Below, in pieces: positions 8,862-45,067 of a DNA stretch of 64,000 nucleotides (position 1 is its first letter; each line of letters starts with the position of its first letter). This stretch comes from Gordonia jinghuaiqii. GTDB taxonomy: Bacteria > Actinomycetota > Actinomycetes > Mycobacteriales > Mycobacteriaceae. Location: positions 2,914,001-2,978,000 of the forward strand of contig NZ_CP059491.1 in the NCBI RefSeq assembly GCF_014041935.1. Direction: 5' to 3'. Made by a program: the position numbers and the translations under genes. The notes beneath the pieces were generated by a model. It was not told the origin of the DNA. It ran no database searches and saw only the letters and a program-made list of their open reading frames with translations.

Positions 8862-11108
<2,247 letters not shown>

Positions 11109-11143
11109 TCTGACGACGCCCGCTGATCTGACGACGTCGCGAG

Positions 11144-11174
11144 GCGGAGGTATCCGGTTCCCGGGTACCTCCGC
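11144..11174 (+). terminator. Hairpin terminator downstream of katG
   Basis: An inverted repeat with 12-base arms (GCGGAGGTATCC and GGGTACCTCCGC, one G-U pair) around a seven-base loop lies 36 bases after the katG stop. It has no U-tract, which is common in actinobacteria. The preceding 14-base direct repeat CTGATCTGACGACG (11105 and 11123) spans the katG stop codon. Confidence 0.65.
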
Positions 11175-11328
11175 TTCGGTGTCTACCGACCCCGGCGTTC
11201 TCCTTGGCGCAGCCGTCTCGTCCCTCCGTGACGGAGTCGTCTCGTCGCCCGGCGCGCACGCGAATCCGGAACTATGCTGGCGCTTTCCCTCGGTTGGCGG
11301 GTGACCGCCGTGACGGAAGGTGACGACG

Positions 11329-12579
11329 ATGTCCGGCGAGCACAGGTCTCTGGGCCACATCCGACTGACCTCACACAGCGGCGGGGTCGACGCCCCGCCC
11401 CTCCACTGGGGCGCGGCCACCGCGGCCGAACGAGGACCGGTCATCGGCACCACGGGAACGCGCGGTCACCGCAACGTCATCGGCACCCACAGCGGGTCCT
11501 ACAGCGTGTATCGGGCGCTGGCCGTCGCCGCCGGCGCACTCGCCCGCGAACATCGCGCCGACCTCACCGACACCGCGCCCACCGATCACATCGGCCCGTA
11601 TCCGCAATGGTGTGATCCCAAGGTCATCGTCTCCCTCGATCCCTGGGGAGCGACCGTCGCCGAGAGCTTCCCCGACGAGATCGCCGCGGGCTACGACATC
11701 CGCCCGACGATCGCCATCACCAAAGCGCACGTGATCCTGCCCGAGATCGCCGAGGCGATCGACAAGGGCCGACTCGTCCCCGACGGCCGGGTGCTCCTGC
11801 CCAACGGCGCCGCCCTGGTGACCAAGGCCGCGCTCGAACCGGTGTGGCACCTGCCGGGCGTGGCGCAACGGTTCGGATGTTCCGAGGCCGAGTTGCGCCG
11901 GGTCCTGTTCGAGGAGACCGGCGGTATGTACCCCGAACTGGTCACCCGGTCCGATCTCGAGGTCTTCCTGCCACCCATCGGCGGGCAGACCGTCTACATC
12001 TTCGGCGACGCCCGCGACCTCTCGAACCCGTCGGTCGAGCTGACCGCCCGGGTCCACGACGAATGCAACGGCTCGGATGTGTTCGGCTCCGACATCTGCA
12101 CGTGCCGGCCCTATCTGACCCACGCGATCGAGGAGTGCATCCGCGGCACCCAGCGCGGCGGTGTCGGATTGGTCTCCTACTCGCGCAAGGAAGGGCGCGC
12201 ACTCGGTGAGGTCACCAAGTTCCTGGTCTACAACGCGCGCAAACGCCAGGTCGGCGGCGACACCGCAGATCAGTACTTCGCGCGCACGGAATGCGTTGCG
12301 GGCGTTCAGGACATGCGGTTCCAAGAACTCATGCCCGACGTGCTGCACTGGTTCGGAATCACCAAGATCCATCACCTGGTGTCGATGAGCAACATGAAGT
12401 ACGACGCCATCACCACCTCGGGCATCGAGGTCGGTGAACGGGTGAACATCCCCGACGAACTGGTCCCGGCCGACGCCCGGGTGGAGATCGACGCGAAGAT
12501 GGCGGCCGGCTATTTCACCCCGGGACCGGTGCCCGATGCCGACGAACTGCGACAGGTCAAGGGCCGGGGGCTGGAGTGA
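11329..12579 (+). CDS. URC1: URC1-type GTP cyclohydrolase II-like protein (uracil catabolism)
   Basis: A 416-residue protein with an N-terminal extension domain of about 220 residues (the GTP_CH_N type) followed by a GTP cyclohydrolase II-like domain. The zinc cysteines are kept as C246, C257 and C259 (HDEC and DICTC), and the catalytic loop reads SRKEGRALGEVTKF, near residues 285-298. True RibA for riboflavin lacks this extension and is usually fused to or clustered with other rib genes. Here the partners are DUF1688 and Upp, which matches the yeast URC pathway, where Urc1 acts on a UMP-derived uracil ring. The ATG at 11329 follows a GGAAGG by eight bases and is preferred to the GTG at 11320. 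It overlaps the next gene by four bases. Confidence 0.85.
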   Translation: MSGEHRSLGHIRLTSHSGGVDAPPLHWGAATAAERGPVIGTTGTRGHRNVIGTHSGSYSVYRALAVAAGALAREHRADLTDTAPTDHIGPYPQWCDPKVIVSLDPWGATVAESFPDEIAAGYDIRPTIAITKAHVILPEIAEAIDKGRLVPDGRVLLPNGAALVTKAALEPVWHLPGVAQRFGCSEAELRRVLFEETGGMYPELVTRSDLEVFLPPIGGQTVYIFGDARDLSNPSVELTARVHDECNGSDVFGSDICTCRPYLTHAIEECIRGTQRGGVGLVSYSRKEGRALGEVTKFLVYNARKRQVGGDTADQYFARTECVAGVQDMRFQELMPDVLHWFGITKIHHLVSMSNMKYDAITTSGIEVGERVNIPDELVPADARVEIDAKMAAGYFTPGPVPDADELRQVKGRGLE

Positions 12580-13826
12580 GTTCCCCCGCGCACGGCGCCG
12601 CGGCGGACCCGCTCGCCGACCGGGCAGCCGAGCTACTCCGAACCACCGGCGCGGTACGAACGCGGTCCCGCCAGCTGCTCGATCGCGCGCGGGCCGGCGG
12701 GTCGCCGTGGTTCACCGTGCAGGACGGCGCACTCGACGCGGCCGCCGAGATCGTCGCCGACACCTGCCGGTCTCGATACCCCGAGGGGAACATCCCTTTT
12801 CACAGTCGGTGGCGACATTTCGAGGCCGGCGGCATCGACCGTCTGGATTCCCTCGACGGCGCCCTGCCGGACAATTCCGCCGAGCGAAGTCGCGTGCTCA
12901 TCGACCTGGTGGTGGTCAGCGTGCTCCTCGACGCCGGAGCCGGACCGGACTGGCGCTACCACGAATCGTCGACCGGACTGGTGCTGACACGGTCCGAGGG
13001 ACTCGGCGTCGCGAGTTGGGACGCGTTCGGCGCAGGTCTGTTCTCCGGCGATCCGACCCGACCCCTGCGCGCCGACGCCGCCGGCCTGACCGCCCTCACC
13101 GTCGACGACCTGGGGTCGGCGTTCGGGGTGGATCGGGCGAACCCACTGACCGGCCTGGACGGGCGCGTCGACCTTCTCCGTCGTCTCGGTGACGCACTCG
13201 CCGCTCGGCCGGAGGTGTTCGGACCCGACGCCCGGCCCGGCGGTCTGTTCGACCACCTCACCCGGGACGGCGACCCACGGATCTCCGCGACCGACATCCT
13301 GGGCGCCGTCCTCGAGTTCCTGGGACCGATCTGGCCGTCGGACAACACGATCGGGCTTCATCCCCTCGGTGATTGCTGGCAGCACAGGGCGGTGGCAGGC
13401 CCGGGCCTCAGCGCGGGTTGGATGCCGTTCCACAAGCTGTCGCAGTGGTTGACCTACTCGCTGCTCGAACCGTTCGTGTGGGCGGGAATCGAGGTCACCG
13501 GGCTCGATGAGCTGACCGGCCTGCCCGAATACCGCAACGGCGGACTCCTCCTCGACACCGGCGTCCTCGAACTCCGGAAAAAGGCGTGGGCACAACGGGA
13601 GTGGAACGTCGGTGACGAGCTCGTCGTCGAATGGCGCGCACTGACCGTCGCACTGCTCGACGAACTCGCCGACCTGGTCCGCGAACGGCTGGGCGCGAGT
13701 TCGACGGAGATGCCGCTGGCGTGCGTCCTGGAAGGCGGGACGTGGGCCGCGGGCCGAGTACTAGCAGGAGAACTACGAGATGGTCTGCCGCCGTTGTCGA
13801 TTCACAGCACCGGCACCGTTTTCTGA
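12576..13826 (+). CDS. URC4: URC4/Urg3 family protein (DUF1688)
   Basis: A 416-residue protein of the DUF1688 family, known from yeast and fungi as Urc4/Urg3, required for growth on uracil as nitrogen source. Conserved-looking stretches are NIPFHSRWRHFEAGG, PDWRYHESSTG, HPLGDCWQH and GWMPFHKLSQWLTYSL. There is no membrane segment or signal. In yeast, loss of URC4 leads to ribosylurea accumulation, so the family is thought to act after ring opening; the precise reaction is not settled as far as I know. Its GTG start overlaps the stop of the URC1 gene (GTGA), indicating translational coupling, and upp follows after 15 bases. Confidence 0.87.
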   Translation: MSSPAHGAAADPLADRAAELLRTTGAVRTRSRQLLDRARAGGSPWFTVQDGALDAAAEIVADTCRSRYPEGNIPFHSRWRHFEAGGIDRLDSLDGALPDNSAERSRVLIDLVVVSVLLDAGAGPDWRYHESSTGLVLTRSEGLGVASWDAFGAGLFSGDPTRPLRADAAGLTALTVDDLGSAFGVDRANPLTGLDGRVDLLRRLGDALAARPEVFGPDARPGGLFDHLTRDGDPRISATDILGAVLEFLGPIWPSDNTIGLHPLGDCWQHRAVAGPGLSAGWMPFHKLSQWLTYSLLEPFVWAGIEVTGLDELTGLPEYRNGGLLLDTGVLELRKKAWAQREWNVGDELVVEWRALTVALLDELADLVRERLGASSTEMPLACVLEGGTWAAGRVLAGELRDGLPPLSIHSTGTVF

Positions 13827-13841
13827 TCCGAGAGGACCTTC

Positions 13842-14471
13842 ATGGGCACCGTCGCCGTCATCGATCATCCGCTGGTACAGCACAAGTTGACGCTCATGCG
13901 TCGCGAAGACACGTCCACCAGCGACTTCCGTCGGTTGTTGAACGAGATCTCCACCCTCATGGCCTACGACGTGTTGCGGGACATCCCGATGCACGAGGTC
14001 ACCATCGAGACCCCGCTCGAGACCACCACGGCCAGCGTGATCGACGGCAAGAAGCTGGTGTTCGCCGCGGTTCTGCGTGCGGGCGCCGGTATCGCCGACG
14101 GCATGCTGACCGTGGTGCCGGGCGCCCGTGTCGGGCACATCGGCCTCTACCGGGACCCCAAGACCATGGTGGTCGTGGAGTACTACTTCAAGATGCCCTC
14201 AGAGCTCGACGAGCGTGATGTGGTGATCGTCGATCCGCTTCTGGCAACCGGACATTCGGCCGTCGCGGCGATCGATCGGATCAAGGAGTACGGGCCGCGG
14301 TCGATCAAGTTCGTGTGCCTGCTCGCCTGCCCCGAGGGCATCGGGGTACTCCACCGTGCGCACCCCGACGTACCGATCTACACCGCAGGCATCGATCGGG
14401 AACTCGACGACAACGGTTTCATCCGGCCCGGCCTCGGCGATGCGGGCGACCGGATCTTCGGGACCGCGTGA
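13842..14471 (+). CDS. upp: Uracil phosphoribosyltransferase
   Basis: A 209-residue type I phosphoribosyltransferase that makes UMP from uracil and PRPP. The family length is right and the PRPP loop is [14 protein letters not shown] (about residues 127-140). The uracil-binding C-terminal region is [25 protein letters not shown]. The N-terminal flexible arm also matches ([18 protein letters not shown]). A GAGAGG motif precedes the ATG. Its position as third gene of the URC cassette fits the yeast pathway, where UPRT (Urc6/Fur1) supplies UMP for the URC enzymes. It may therefore be a catabolic paralogue rather than, or besides, the general salvage enzyme. Confidence 0.96.
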
Positions 14472-14504
14472 CCCCCGGTCCGCGACCTCGCAGGGCAATA
14501 TCGG

Positions 14505-15215
14505 TCAGGACACCTGCCAGGCCACGGCAGCGCCGATGGCGCCGGTCGCATTGAGCGCCCAGTGCAGTGCGATCGGGGCGAGCAGGCTCGTGGTGCGATG
14601 TCGCAGCCAGCCGAGCACGAAACCGGCGACGCCGGTCGCCAGGACGGCCCCGGCGATCCCGGCGATCTGGGCGAGGACGCCCGCCCCCAGGACGTCGCTC
14701 AAACCCTCGTTGCCCGCAGTGAGGCCGGTCGAGGACGAGATGTGCCACAGTCCGAACGCGACGGCACCGAAGATCAACGTCATCACCGGCCTGCACAGTC
14801 GGCCCAGAACCCCTTGCAGCACACCGCGGAAGATGACCTCCTCGGGCAGCACCGTCTGCAGCGGGATGATCACGAAGGCGGCCAGCAACGCCTCGGAGGT
14901 GTCGTCGTAGCGGTCGGACAGGAAGAACTCGCGCGTCGCCGGGATCGCGACGGCCGCCGACACGATCGCCGCGACCACGATCACCGACGCGACAGCGAAC
15001 GGGATACCGGCACGCAACTCCGAACGACTCAGACCCAGATCCCGCCACCCCAGTCCGCCGCCACGGGCGACGGCGAGAAGAACGACCGCCGCGACAGGAA
15101 TCAGCGCGATCTCCACCGGACCGCCCACCCGGTGGGCGACGACGTTCACCACGACCAGGATCGCGACCACCACCACGAGGAGCGCGGCGTCGTGGCGCCG
15201 GGACTGGGTGATCAC
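14505..15215 (-). CDS. CPBP-family intramembrane glutamic protease (CAAX protease-like)
   Basis: A 236-residue integral membrane protein of the Abi/CPBP family. The active-site motifs are present and in order: EEVIFRG (EExxxR), GLWHISS and a C-terminal HWALN. Six to eight hydrophobic segments are visible, starting with AALLVVVVAILVVVNVVAH. Family members include prenyl-protein-type proteases and bacteriocin self-immunity proteins; no partner peptide gene is nearby, so the substrate is unknown. The GTG at 15215 is chosen because upstream codons are Arg-rich shadow sequence. It converges with upp and diverges from the BASS transporter. Confidence 0.82.
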   Translation of the reverse strand: MITQSRRHDAALLVVVVAILVVVNVVAHRVGGPVEIALIPVAAVVLLAVARGGGLGWRDLGLSRSELRAGIPFAVASVIVVAAIVSAAVAIPATREFFLSDRYDDTSEALLAAFVIIPLQTVLPEEVIFRGVLQGVLGRLCRPVMTLIFGAVAFGLWHISSSTGLTAGNEGLSDVLGAGVLAQIAGIAGAVLATGVAGFVLGWLRHRTTSLLAPIALHWALNATGAIGAAVAWQVS

Positions 15216-15282
15216 GCGTCGAGTGTCCCGCACGCGACATCCCCGGTGTCGGCGTTCACCGGAGGTGACCGAGAATGGTGCG

Positions 15283-16251
15283 ATGTCCGCCCCCGCGACC
15301 ATGACCGCGCGCCTCGAGCGCCACCAGGTCGTGCTCTACCTGGCCGCCATCGCGGCGGGACTCGGCGCCGGTCTGACTTTCCCGACGACCGCCGAAGCAC
15401 TCGACGTCGCGGTCACCCCACTTCTGGTGGCGCTTCTGTACGTGACGTTCCTGCAGGTTCGGGCGTCGGACCTGCTTACGTCCCTGCGTGACCGGCGGTT
15501 CATGACGGCGGTGCTGATCATCAACTTCGTCGTCGCACCGGCCGTCGTCGCAGCTCTGTCACCGCTGCTGCCGGCCGACGACGCGATCCGCGTCGGGGCG
15601 ATGCTCGTCCTGCTGTCACCGTGTGTGGACTACGTGGTGGTGTTCACCGGGCTCGCCGGCGGCGACCATCGGCGACTGCTCGCGGCCACTCCCCTGTTGT
15701 TGCTGGCCCAGATGCTGCTGACCCCGGTATATCTGACGATTCTCCTCGGCGACCGCAGATCAGTCATCGATCCGGAACCGTTCCTGTGGGCATTCCTCGT
15801 GCTGATCGTGCTACCGCTGGCTTCGGCGTGGCTCACCCAGGCCTGGGCCGCGCGGTCGGACACCGGGCGTGCGGCCGGCACCGCCGCGGGTACGACGATG
15901 GTCCCGTTGATGATCGCCGTCCTGTTCGTCGCGGTGTGCTCGCAGGTGCCGCGCATCGATGGCCGGTTCGGCGAGATCGCCGGCTTCGTCCCGGTGTACG
16001 TCGCGTTCCTGGTCCTCATGGCGGTGATCGGACTCGTCCTGGCGCGCGGCTTTCGGCTTCGGCCCAAACCTGCTCGCGCCGTGGTCTTCTCCGGGGCCAC
16101 CCGTAATTCTCTGGTGGTCTTGCCGCTGGCGCTGGCCCTTCCGGTCGGGGCGGAGCTGGCGGCGGCGACGGTGATCACTCAGACGCTGGTGGAACTCGCC
16201 GGGATGGTTGTTCTGGTGTGGGCGTTCACTTGTGGGGCACGTCGGCGCTGA
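15283..16251 (+). CDS. BASS/ACR3-type transporter (arsenic resistance-like)
   Basis: A 322-residue membrane protein with about ten hydrophobic segments, resembling the bile acid:sodium symporter superfamily branch commonly annotated as arsenic resistance protein. The segment LSPCVDYVVVFTGLAGGD contains the Cys in the position typical of ACR3 carriers. RAVVFSGATRNSLVVLPLALALP matches the conserved crossover region near the C-terminus. No arsenate reductase or ArsR gene lies nearby, so arsenite export is uncertain. The start is uncertain: the ATG at 15283 is preferred, with 15301 as alternative. Its last 26 bases overlap the end of the convergent SDR gene. Confidence 0.78.
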   Translation: MSAPATMTARLERHQVVLYLAAIAAGLGAGLTFPTTAEALDVAVTPLLVALLYVTFLQVRASDLLTSLRDRRFMTAVLIINFVVAPAVVAALSPLLPADDAIRVGAMLVLLSPCVDYVVVFTGLAGGDHRRLLAATPLLLLAQMLLTPVYLTILLGDRRSVIDPEPFLWAFLVLIVLPLASAWLTQAWAARSDTGRAAGTAAGTTMVPLMIAVLFVAVCSQVPRIDGRFGEIAGFVPVYVAFLVLMAVIGLVLARGFRLRPKPARAVVFSGATRNSLVVLPLALALPVGAELAAATVITQTLVELAGMVVLVWAFTCGARRR

Positions 16252-42206: not shown

Positions 42207-42872
42207 TCAGGACATGAACAGTGGCATGGGTTGCCGCTCATGGCGTTCGGCGAAGATGTCGAGGATCGGGTCGGACAGATCGGCCAATCCCACCGCGGCT
42301 TCGGCGGCGACACGTTCACATTCGGTGCCGAGTTCGGCGATCATGATCGCCACGTCGGCCGGGTCGAGGGCGAGCAGTCGCTGTCCGGCCGTCGCCGAGC
42401 CACTCATCGTCGTGTACACGAGGACGAGTGCGGTGTGGAATCCCGACAACGACGACGCCGCCCCGATCGCTCCGCTGATCACCGGCAGATGCGTCGTGGG
42501 CCGGTGTGCGGACCAGTCGAGGTCGGCCCACATCCGGCGGGCCAGCCGCAGCATCCCCCTGCCCTGTGCCAGCGACGCCTTGCGGGCGGCCGCAGAGGGG
42601 GTTCGGGCGTCCATCTCATCCTGTGCCGGACCGACATCGAGCACTCCGTCGGCGACGGCCGCGGCCACCGACGCCGCGACCAGCCCGCTGGTGGTGACCC
42701 GGCGATAGAGGTAGCCGGCGAGATCGCCGGCGCTGCGGATGAAGCCGTCGGCAATCGCCTGTTCGACTCCGCCGGAGTGCACGTGCCCACCGACCGGGAG
42801 GCGTGAGTCGGCCAGCGACAGCATCATCGCCAGCGGTGCGTGGTTTCCTGCGGTTGACTCGGCCGGTCGCAT
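42207..42872 (-). CDS. ureF: Urease accessory protein UreF
   Basis: A 221-residue all-helical UreF, the GTPase-regulating accessory factor that bridges UreD and UreG. The conserved start is LSLADSRLPVGGHVHSGGVEQAI; the family core also includes HLPVISGAIGAASSLSG. Its ATG at 42872 overlaps the ureC stop (TGATG), indicating coupled translation. Residues upstream of this ATG in the open frame belong to the other-frame reading of ureC and are excluded. Confidence 0.93.
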   Translation of the reverse strand: MRPAESTAGNHAPLAMMLSLADSRLPVGGHVHSGGVEQAIADGFIRSAGDLAGYLYRRVTTSGLVAASVAAAVADGVLDVGPAQDEMDARTPSAAARKASLAQGRGMLRLARRMWADLDWSAHRPTTHLPVISGAIGAASSLSGFHTALVLVYTTMSGSATAGQRLLALDPADVAIMIAELGTECERVAAEAAVGLADLSDPILDIFAERHERQPMPLFMS

Positions 42873-44590
42873 CAGAACAGGAAGTACCGCTGCGCCATCG
42901 GCAGCTCGGCCACCGGGTCGGACTCCCACACCTCGCCGTCGACCTTCACCGTGAAGGTGTCGGGGTCGACCTCGATGGTCGGGCAGGCATCGTTGTTCAC
43001 CATGTCCGCCTTCCCGACACCGCGGGTGTTCTTCACCGCGACCAACCTGCGGTCGACGCCGATGCGGCCGGCGAGGTCGTCGTCGGCGCCGGGGGCCACG
43101 AAGCTCACCGAGGTCGCGGCCGCGAGTTTGGGAGCCGACCCGAACATCGGACGCGGCAGAACGGGCTGCGGGGTCGGGATAGAGGCGTTCGCGTCGCCCA
43201 TGGCCGCCCAGGCGATCGCCCCGCCCTTGATCACGAGGTCCGGCCGGACACCGAAGAACACCGGATCCCAGAGCACCAGGTCGGCGAGCTTGCCCACCTC
43301 GATCGAACCGATCTCGTCGTCGAAGCCGTGCGCGACGGCCGGGCAGATCGTGTACTTGGCGACGTAGCGCCTGGCGCGGTTGTTGTCGGCGCGCCCGTCT
43401 CCGGGCAACGAGCCGCGTTTGCGTTTCATCACATGCGCGGTCTGCCAGGTCCGTAGCACGACCTCACCGATGCGGCCCATCGCCTGCGAGTCCGAGCCGA
43501 TCATCGAGATGGCGCCGAGATCGTGCAGCAGGTCCTCGGCGGCGATCGTCGACGGTCGGATCCGGCTCTCGGCGAACGCCAGATCCTCCGGCACGGTCGG
43601 GTTGAGATGGTGGCACACCATCAGCATGTCGAGGTGCTCGTCGAGTGTGTTGACGGTGTGCGGCCGCGTCGGATTGGTCGATGACGGAAGCACATTCGGG
43701 TAGGCCGCGACGGTGATGATGTCCGGTGCGTGGCCGCCGCCTGCGCCCTCGGTGTGATAGGCGTGGATGCCACGCCCCGCGATCGCACCGAGCGTCGACT
43801 CGACGAATCCTGCCTCGTTGAGGGTGTCCGAATGCAGTGCGACCTGGACACCGGTCTGGTCGGCGACGCGCAGACATGCGTCGATCGCGGCCGGGGTGCT
43901 CCCCCAGTCCTCGTGCAGCTTGAAACCCGATGCGCCGGCCCGGATCTGCTCGTGCATGGACTCGGCGCTGACGGTGTTGCCCTTGCCGAGCAGGGCGATG
44001 TTCATCGGCCAGTGATCGGTGGCGGCGAGTATCGATGCGAGGTGCCACGCACCGGGGGTCACGGTGGTGGCCTTGCTGCCCTCCGCCGGCCCGGTGCCGC
44101 CACCGATGAGCGTGGTGATCCCGTTGCCGAGCGCCTCGTCCATGATCTGCGGGCAGATGAAATGGACGTGACAGTCGATGGCGCCTGCGGTGACGATCTT
44201 GCCGTTGCCCGCGATGATCTCCGTCGACGGCCCGATCACCAGATCGGGGTGGACGCCGTCCATGGTGTCGGGATTGCCCGCCTTGCCCAACGCGACGATG
44301 CGGCCGTTTCGAATACCGAGGTCCGCCTTGATGATTCCCCAATGATCCAGGACCACCACGCCGGTGATGACGGTGTCGGGGGTACCGTCGGCGCGGGTGG
44401 CCCGACTCTGCCCCATCGACTCGCGGATCACCTTGCCGCCGCCGAAGACCGCCTCCTCACCGGCACGGCCCGGCCCACCGGCGAGGTCGTCGGTGACCTC
44501 GATGAGCAGATCGGTGTCGGCGAGCCGGATCAGGTCACCGGTTGTCGGACCGAACAACTGCGCATAACGATCGCGCCCCAGGATGGCCAT
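42872..44590 (-). CDS. ureC: Urease alpha (catalytic) subunit UreC
   Basis: A 572-residue nickel amidohydrolase that hydrolyses urea to ammonia and carbamate. All metal and catalytic residues are present with a constant offset of +7 from the Klebsiella enzyme: H141 and H143 (CHVHFICP), the lysine that is carbamylated K224 (GFKLHEDWG), H253, H279, the active-site flap base H327 (MVCHHLNP) and D367. The length is normal. It starts three bases after ureB and is translationally linked to ureF. Confidence 0.98.
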
Positions 44591-44593
44591 GAC

Positions 44594-44971
44594 TCACTCG
44601 CTCTCTGCGGTGTCGCGCGCCTGTACCGGACCACATCGGCCGGGCGGATCCAGCGAGATGCCGTACACCTCACGGGTGCCGCCGAGCGGGACCAGCGTCA
44701 CCGCCATCTCGATGCCCGGCTCGAAACGAACCGCGGTGCCGGCCGGGATGTCGAGGCGACGACCGTGCGCGGCGGCACGATCGAACTCGAGCGCGGGGTT
44801 CGACTGCGGGAAGTGGACATGACTGCCGACCTGCACGGGCCGGTCACCGGAATTGACCACGGCCAGCTCGACGGTGTCGGCGCCGGCGTTCAACTCGATG
44901 GTCCCCTCGGCGGGGATCACCTCACCGGGGACGAGCGACGATCGCGGGCCGGTGGACGGCATACCCGACAT
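44594..44971 (-). CDS. ureB: Urease beta subunit UreB
   Basis: A 125-residue structural subunit of the urease heterotrimer. The family core is visible in [40 protein letters not shown] and [19 protein letters not shown]; the last stretch is Cys-containing and variable. The ATG at 44971 has AGAGGA six bases upstream, which decides it over 44992 and 45007. A 96-base gap separates it from ureA, unlike the overlap seen in mycobacteria. Confidence 0.95.
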
Positions 44972-45067
44972 CTCGGTCCTCTCTGATGACATGCGGTGCG
45001 TCGGCACGGCGGGGATGGGTCGGGGGACGAGGAGGACGGTGGTGCAGTTCGCCGGAGTCGATCGGGC

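Follow-up and report, generated by a model that had tools for sequence, protein, structure and literature searches.

The window, a stretch of 64,000 nucleotides of the Gordonia jinghuaiqii genome (contig NZ_CP059491.1, positions 2,914,001 to 2,978,000), carries three coupled genes, here termed URC1, URC4 and upp, which are interpreted as a bacterial URC operon that breaks uracil down, with URC4 as a urea-releasing glycosylase whose substrate may be in either phosphorylation state (rough probability 0.8). Very probably, the operon thus degrades uracil to urea. The route runs through uridine monophosphate (UMP), and its enzymes URC1 and URC4 have been without firm assignments, the databases naming URC1 as a riboflavin-type enzyme and DUF1688, the family of URC4, as of “unknown function.” The cassette itself is already known, occurs in Burkholderiales as well as in soil actinobacteria and is related to the yeast pathway, Gordonia being a further case; what is added here is the assignment of URC4 to a specific type of enzyme, which can be tested, and evidence for pyrimidine-feeding neighbours in other bacteria. 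The three genes are as follows:

11329..12579, plus strand: URC1, proposed to open the ring of UMP by hydrolysis; PF12471 N-terminal domain and a GTP cyclohydrolase II domain that has diverged
12576..13826, plus strand: URC4 (DUF1688), proposed (phospho)ribosylurea N-glycosylase with the Qng1 fold
13842..14471, plus strand: upp, URC6-type uracil phosphoribosyltransferase (UPRT), the cassette’s own copy

The genes overlap or abut at the positions given by the original prediction, which had been made from the letters of the stretch. URC1 starts at an ATG (11329) with a Shine-Dalgarno-like run (GGAAGG) just 5′ of it, an alternative in-frame start being the GTG at 11320. Its stop codon TGA (12577–12579) overlaps with the GTG start of URC4 (12576), so that GTGA is common to both genes, and the upp ATG (13842) lies 15 bases beyond the end of the URC4 stop (13826). 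In Pfam searches, URC1 matched PF12471 (GTP_CH_N, E-value 3.8e-79) and PF00925 (5.7e-14), URC4 matched PF07958 (DUF1688, 2.1e-143), and the upp product matched UPRTase (PF14681, 7.2e-72). The components of a URC system are hence all present, i.e., a URC1 combining PF12471 with a domain resembling GTP cyclohydrolase II (GCHII), a DUF1688 protein as URC4, and a linked, dedicated UPRT. Two further statements of the original prediction were borne out: automatic annotation would name the first gene ribA, and NCBIfam labels it “GTP cyclohydrolase II” (PRK07198, 795 bits); riboflavin genes were said to be missing nearby, and none was detected among the flanking genes scanned, which covered part of the window.

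For the conservation analysis, GTDB species genomes were scanned with URC4, and the best 80 of 116 relatives were kept (57 actinobacterial and 23 proteobacterial, the latter mostly Comamonadaceae-type Burkholderiales; the set leans to near relatives). Genes at these loci were located by tblastn and codon-scored open reading frames. URC1 was directly upstream of URC4 in 80/80 relatives and upp directly downstream in 79, the contig of the remaining one (L080) ending within URC4. Chance as the cause of the three-gene order is excluded, since 79 of the 80 relatives keep the identical arrangement. DUF1688 and PF12471 occurred in identical sets of genomes, namely 6/396 sampled genomes of the phylum and 27/201 of the family (overlapping samples, with the own genome counted in both); the cassette is therefore uncommon and patchy in its distribution. 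DUF1688 is single-copy in the own genome. In-frame URC1–URC4 fusions were found in two of the 27 family genomes (G439 and G455, one genus; 841 and 860 amino acids, Pfam-confirmed), with the fusion genes at L104:1526-4051 and L105:2167-4749 and upp 11 bases downstream. A third genome of this genus carries URC1 and URC4 as separate genes. At another locus (L107, G258:C101:32466-33025), the N-terminal domain of URC1 appears as two matches in different frames next to an open URC4 frame, reflecting either a sequencing error or a real break.

URC1 does not look like the riboflavin gene of this genome. The own genome (one contig, 5,184,113 bases) holds four PF00925 matches, three of them elsewhere at 216–249 bits and URC1 at 55 bits, and the nearest stronger GCHII gene is about 370 kb away from the cassette. 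Against TIGR00505, URC1 scored 44.8 bits (cut-off 205.85). The residues of URC1 that align with GCHII are the cysteine triad C246, C257 and C259, Y284, E288-G289-R290, D328, R330 and K357, the corresponding positions of GCHII serving zinc binding (cysteines) and catalysis. Like E. coli-type GCHII (RibA), URC1 has these residues, and they are kept in 81/81 URC1 proteins (80 loci and the window). Unlike it, URC1 has SMSN in place of TNNP, KEGR in place of HEGR, insertions and the PF12471 N-terminal domain; the three RibA-type proteins of the genome carry TNNP and HEGR. Because of this conservation and these replacements, URC1 is predicted to have retained the residues for ring-opening hydrolysis in altered surrounding motifs. 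A single-sequence AlphaFold model of URC1 had a predicted local distance difference test score (pLDDT) of 33 and was not used.

Two PDB entries of a Rhodococcus URC1 (7EEV and 7EJ3) were named GTP cyclohydrolase II by their depositors. Aligned with the R. wratislaviensis URC1 of locus L037, whose gene sits in the identical three-gene cassette, they show 2 differences over 423 positions, by a count made by eye. Taken at face value, the NCBIfam and PDB names, together with the conserved catalytic residues, would make URC1 an extra GCHII of the riboflavin, deazapurine or antibiotic type, and its neighbours salvage genes without a catabolic role. This is considered very improbable, as three stronger GCHII genes exist elsewhere in the genome, the TNNP and the HEGR loop form of all three are missing from URC1, and its N-terminal domain was encountered solely together with DUF1688 in the sampled genomes. 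The label on PRK07198, 7EEV and 7EJ3 hence looks to sit on a seemingly UMP-acting enzyme, and “GTP cyclohydrolase II” names next to DUF1688 are probably wrong.

For the middle enzyme of the pathway, which had no explanation, an established class of enzyme now suggests itself, the base-removing N-glycosylases. The predicted model of URC4 (pLDDT 92.8) matches the overall fold of Qng1, with 16–24% identity to the Qng1/DUF2419 structures 7U07, 7U91 and 7UGK. Lys287 of URC4, present in 181/182 URC4 proteins, aligns with Lys199 of Qng1, and Glu318, a glutamate in all 182, aligns with Asp231, which we take to be catalytic from a mutant structure entry. Of 10 Qng1 matches, the weakest (L118, below the cut-off) was left out of the comparison. 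Judged from the residue at the Asp231 position, which is Glu in 182/182 URC4s, URC4 is a relative of Qng1 and not Qng1 proper; no Qng1 match was found in the own genome. The two would also differ in substrate, since Qng1 is a queuosine-5′-monophosphate N-glycosylase whereas the presumed substrate of URC4 carries urea instead of queuine. A family search with URC4 retrieved at least 7,998 clusters of proteins with E-values up to 0.001, the closest URC4 (99%) bearing the name Gordonia sp. zg691, and the placement in the Qng1 fold with named active-site residues provides a testable reaction for this large family. No report of a relation between URC4 (DUF1688) and Qng1, and no paper on the chemistry of bacterial URC1 or URC4, was found among the matches listed by searches of the open-licence PubMed Central (PMC) literature.

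In the proposed route, UPRT would couple uracil and phosphoribosyl pyrophosphate (PRPP) to UMP, i.e., attach a phosphoribose tag first. URC1, as a GCHII homologue with zinc cysteines and catalytic residues and without TNNP, would then open the UMP ring by two C–N hydrolyses to yield ribosylurea (most likely the 5′-phosphate) and malonate semialdehyde, the counterpart of which in yeast is 3-hydroxypropionate. URC4, as a Qng1-fold N-glycosylase using Lys287 and Glu318, would cleave the glycosidic bond to release urea and ribose(-5-phosphate), and one of the two genomic ureases would convert urea to ammonia. The analysis itself showed the gene identities, their coupling and co-occurrence, residue conservation, the fold match of URC4 with its aligned active-site positions, and the presence of urease, and the URC roles in yeast are taken from the literature. 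What the enzymes convert and produce in Gordonia, whether the intermediate is phosphorylated and whether uracil serves as a nitrogen source is inferred. In its most specific form, towards which we lean with some reserve, URC4 would belong to the Qng1 (HhH-glycosylase) superfamily as a nucleotide N-glycosylase that has Glu for the catalytic Asp, freeing urea from ribosylurea-5′-phosphate made by a UMP-specific cyclohydrolase URC1, so that uracil is lost through a PRPP-primed tag–open–release cycle with hand-over from URC1 to URC4, which would be direct in the fused proteins.

Qng1, whose fold is the closest to that of URC4, favours a 5′-phosphate substrate, and structures of it with queuosine-5′-monophosphate exist. 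Both this and the lack of a fourth gene among the cassette’s three argue against a variant of the URC pathway in which URC4 uses free ribosylurea after dephosphorylation, and the URC1–URC4 fusions likewise fit a direct hand-over. This variant is regarded as possible, if doubtful; in its favour, the yeast scheme as summarised in a passage of PMC7530994 names the intermediate ribosylurea without a phosphate, and the argument from Qng1 is tempered by a passage of PMC9406330, in which the Entamoeba DUF2419 protein is reported to convert queuosine itself.

The means to use urea are present in the genome, which has urease alpha genes at two places, one of them within the window:

42872..45007, minus strand: urease alpha (42872-44590) and urease beta (44594-45007), about 28 kb from the cassette

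This urease could act on urea released by the pathway. The cassette might alternatively serve chiefly to limit surplus uracil or UMP (balance or detoxification) and not to supply nitrogen, as genes for nitrogen regulation, urea use or a permease are missing from it, and a GlnR-like box, searched for with a simple pattern, was absent from 7/7 Gordonia upstream regions. Such a role is held to be unlikely in view of the two ureases, of the yeast pathway, which according to a passage of PMC7530994 lets uracil serve as a nitrogen source, and of the neighbours at proteobacterial loci. There, a cytosine deaminase homologue (best E-value 2e-111 to PDB cytosine deaminase chains) was located downstream in 19/23 proteobacterial and 0/57 other loci (tblastn, E-value 1e-20, in the DNA stretch examined), and a BMP-family binding protein in 8/23 proteobacterial loci (Pfam; PDB relatives), where three genes that read as an ATP-binding cassette (ABC) ATPase and two permeases are also found (tblastn; named by eye). 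These neighbours lend independent support to a pyrimidine-feeding role in bacteria.

Several observations weigh against a uracil-degrading operon with URC4 as a Qng1-type glycosylase. The Pfam model Q_salvage was above its cut-off in 0/4 URC4s: the window URC4 reached an E-value of 0.038 (14 bits, cut-off 25), two divergent URC4s 7.7e-5 and 0.0082, and a fourth (L081) had no match. A URC4 profile had no match among PDB sequences, so that the link to Qng1 rests on the fold and on profile–profile comparison; the latter was weaker with a narrower 62-row alignment in hhalign (E-value 2e-5, probability 77%) and, with other column settings, reached 8.8e-4 and 23%. On the side of URC1, PF00925 still matches above its cut-off, and both NCBIfam and PDB name the protein GTP cyclohydrolase II. 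Neither a permease nor a regulator nor a malonate-semialdehyde enzyme is encoded in the cassette, and a dihydropyrimidinase-type gene above the cut-off, found elsewhere in the genome with an NCS1 permease, possibly provides a second uracil route (reductive or hydantoin). Finally, the URC1 and URC6 steps are called uncharacterised in a passage of PMC7530994.

The URC pathway of yeasts (URC1, URC4 and URC6 of Lachancea/Saccharomyces kluyveri; urg1, urg3 and urg2 of S. pombe) consists of the same three families. In S. pombe, urg1, urg2 and urg3 adjoin each other and are the most strongly uracil-induced genes, as stated in a passage of PMC2174524. Gordonia differs by a tight operon with overlapping reading frames and, for urea use, by the presence of a urease (urea amidolyase in yeast); its cassette also lacks the transporter and zinc-finger regulator that the fungal cluster reportedly has (PMC3869809). 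According to the same 2013 paper, which cites Andersen 2008, bacteria have retained URC1 and URC4 together with the arrangement of their genes, and NCBI names DUF1688 proteins “URC4/urg3 family protein.” With these and the two PDB entries of a cassette URC1, the claim of the original prediction that the bacterial version is little studied was overstated. Its identification of a bacterial URC cassette stands, supported by the three families and their order, single-copy DUF1688 and the cytosine deaminase neighbour in Burkholderiales-type loci. The co-occurrence it had proposed to examine proved strict in the sampled genomes, and of the further copies it had proposed to look for, ribA, the lack of which it had named as a refutation, was found three times and upp once (a full copy at G000:C1:1936212).

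A purine nucleoside phosphorylase gene is found no more than 0.8 kb from the second upp (L128:5168-5821), which would suit a salvage copy. Among other pyrimidine-related genes of the genome, the best RutA match had 297.2 bits, below the curated cut-off of 498.3, and five NCS2-type permease matches were obtained, none in the window. At L127:3349-9990, a dihydropyrimidinase-type amidohydrolase, a diaminopropionate ammonia-lyase-like protein, a 2-oxoglutarate–Fe(II) oxygenase and the NCS1 permease are grouped, possibly as a separate cluster for hydantoin or pyrimidine use.

The remaining features lie directly around the cassette:

11250..11286, plus strand: conserved promoter-like element, CGGCGC, 17 nt, CTATGCTGGCGCTTT
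8895-11108: katG, upstream of URC1
14505-15302, opposite strand: CAAX-type protease gene, downstream of upp

A generic sigma-70 scan and a terminator pattern scan gave no match, nor did Rfam in 10900-14700. The 15-mer CTATGCTGGCGCTTT (11272-11286) contains the −10-like TATGCT (11273-11278), with CGGCGC 17 nt upstream at promoter spacing. With up to 3 mismatches allowed and positions −230 to +30 relative to the start of URC1 searched, it was present in 36/57 actinobacterial loci including the window, in 0/23 proteobacterial loci and in 3/1600 control stretches shuffled in two-base blocks. The motif was chosen after aligning seven Gordonia upstream regions, so that the count leans to Gordonia, and L012 was dropped as it had too little upstream sequence. 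The element appears to resemble a conserved −10 region. Proximity of katG was seen in 13/81 stretches, i.e., in 7/7 of Gordonia (window included; within 10 kb) and 6/74 others, and is taken as hitchhiking because katG is absent near most cassettes outside Gordonia.
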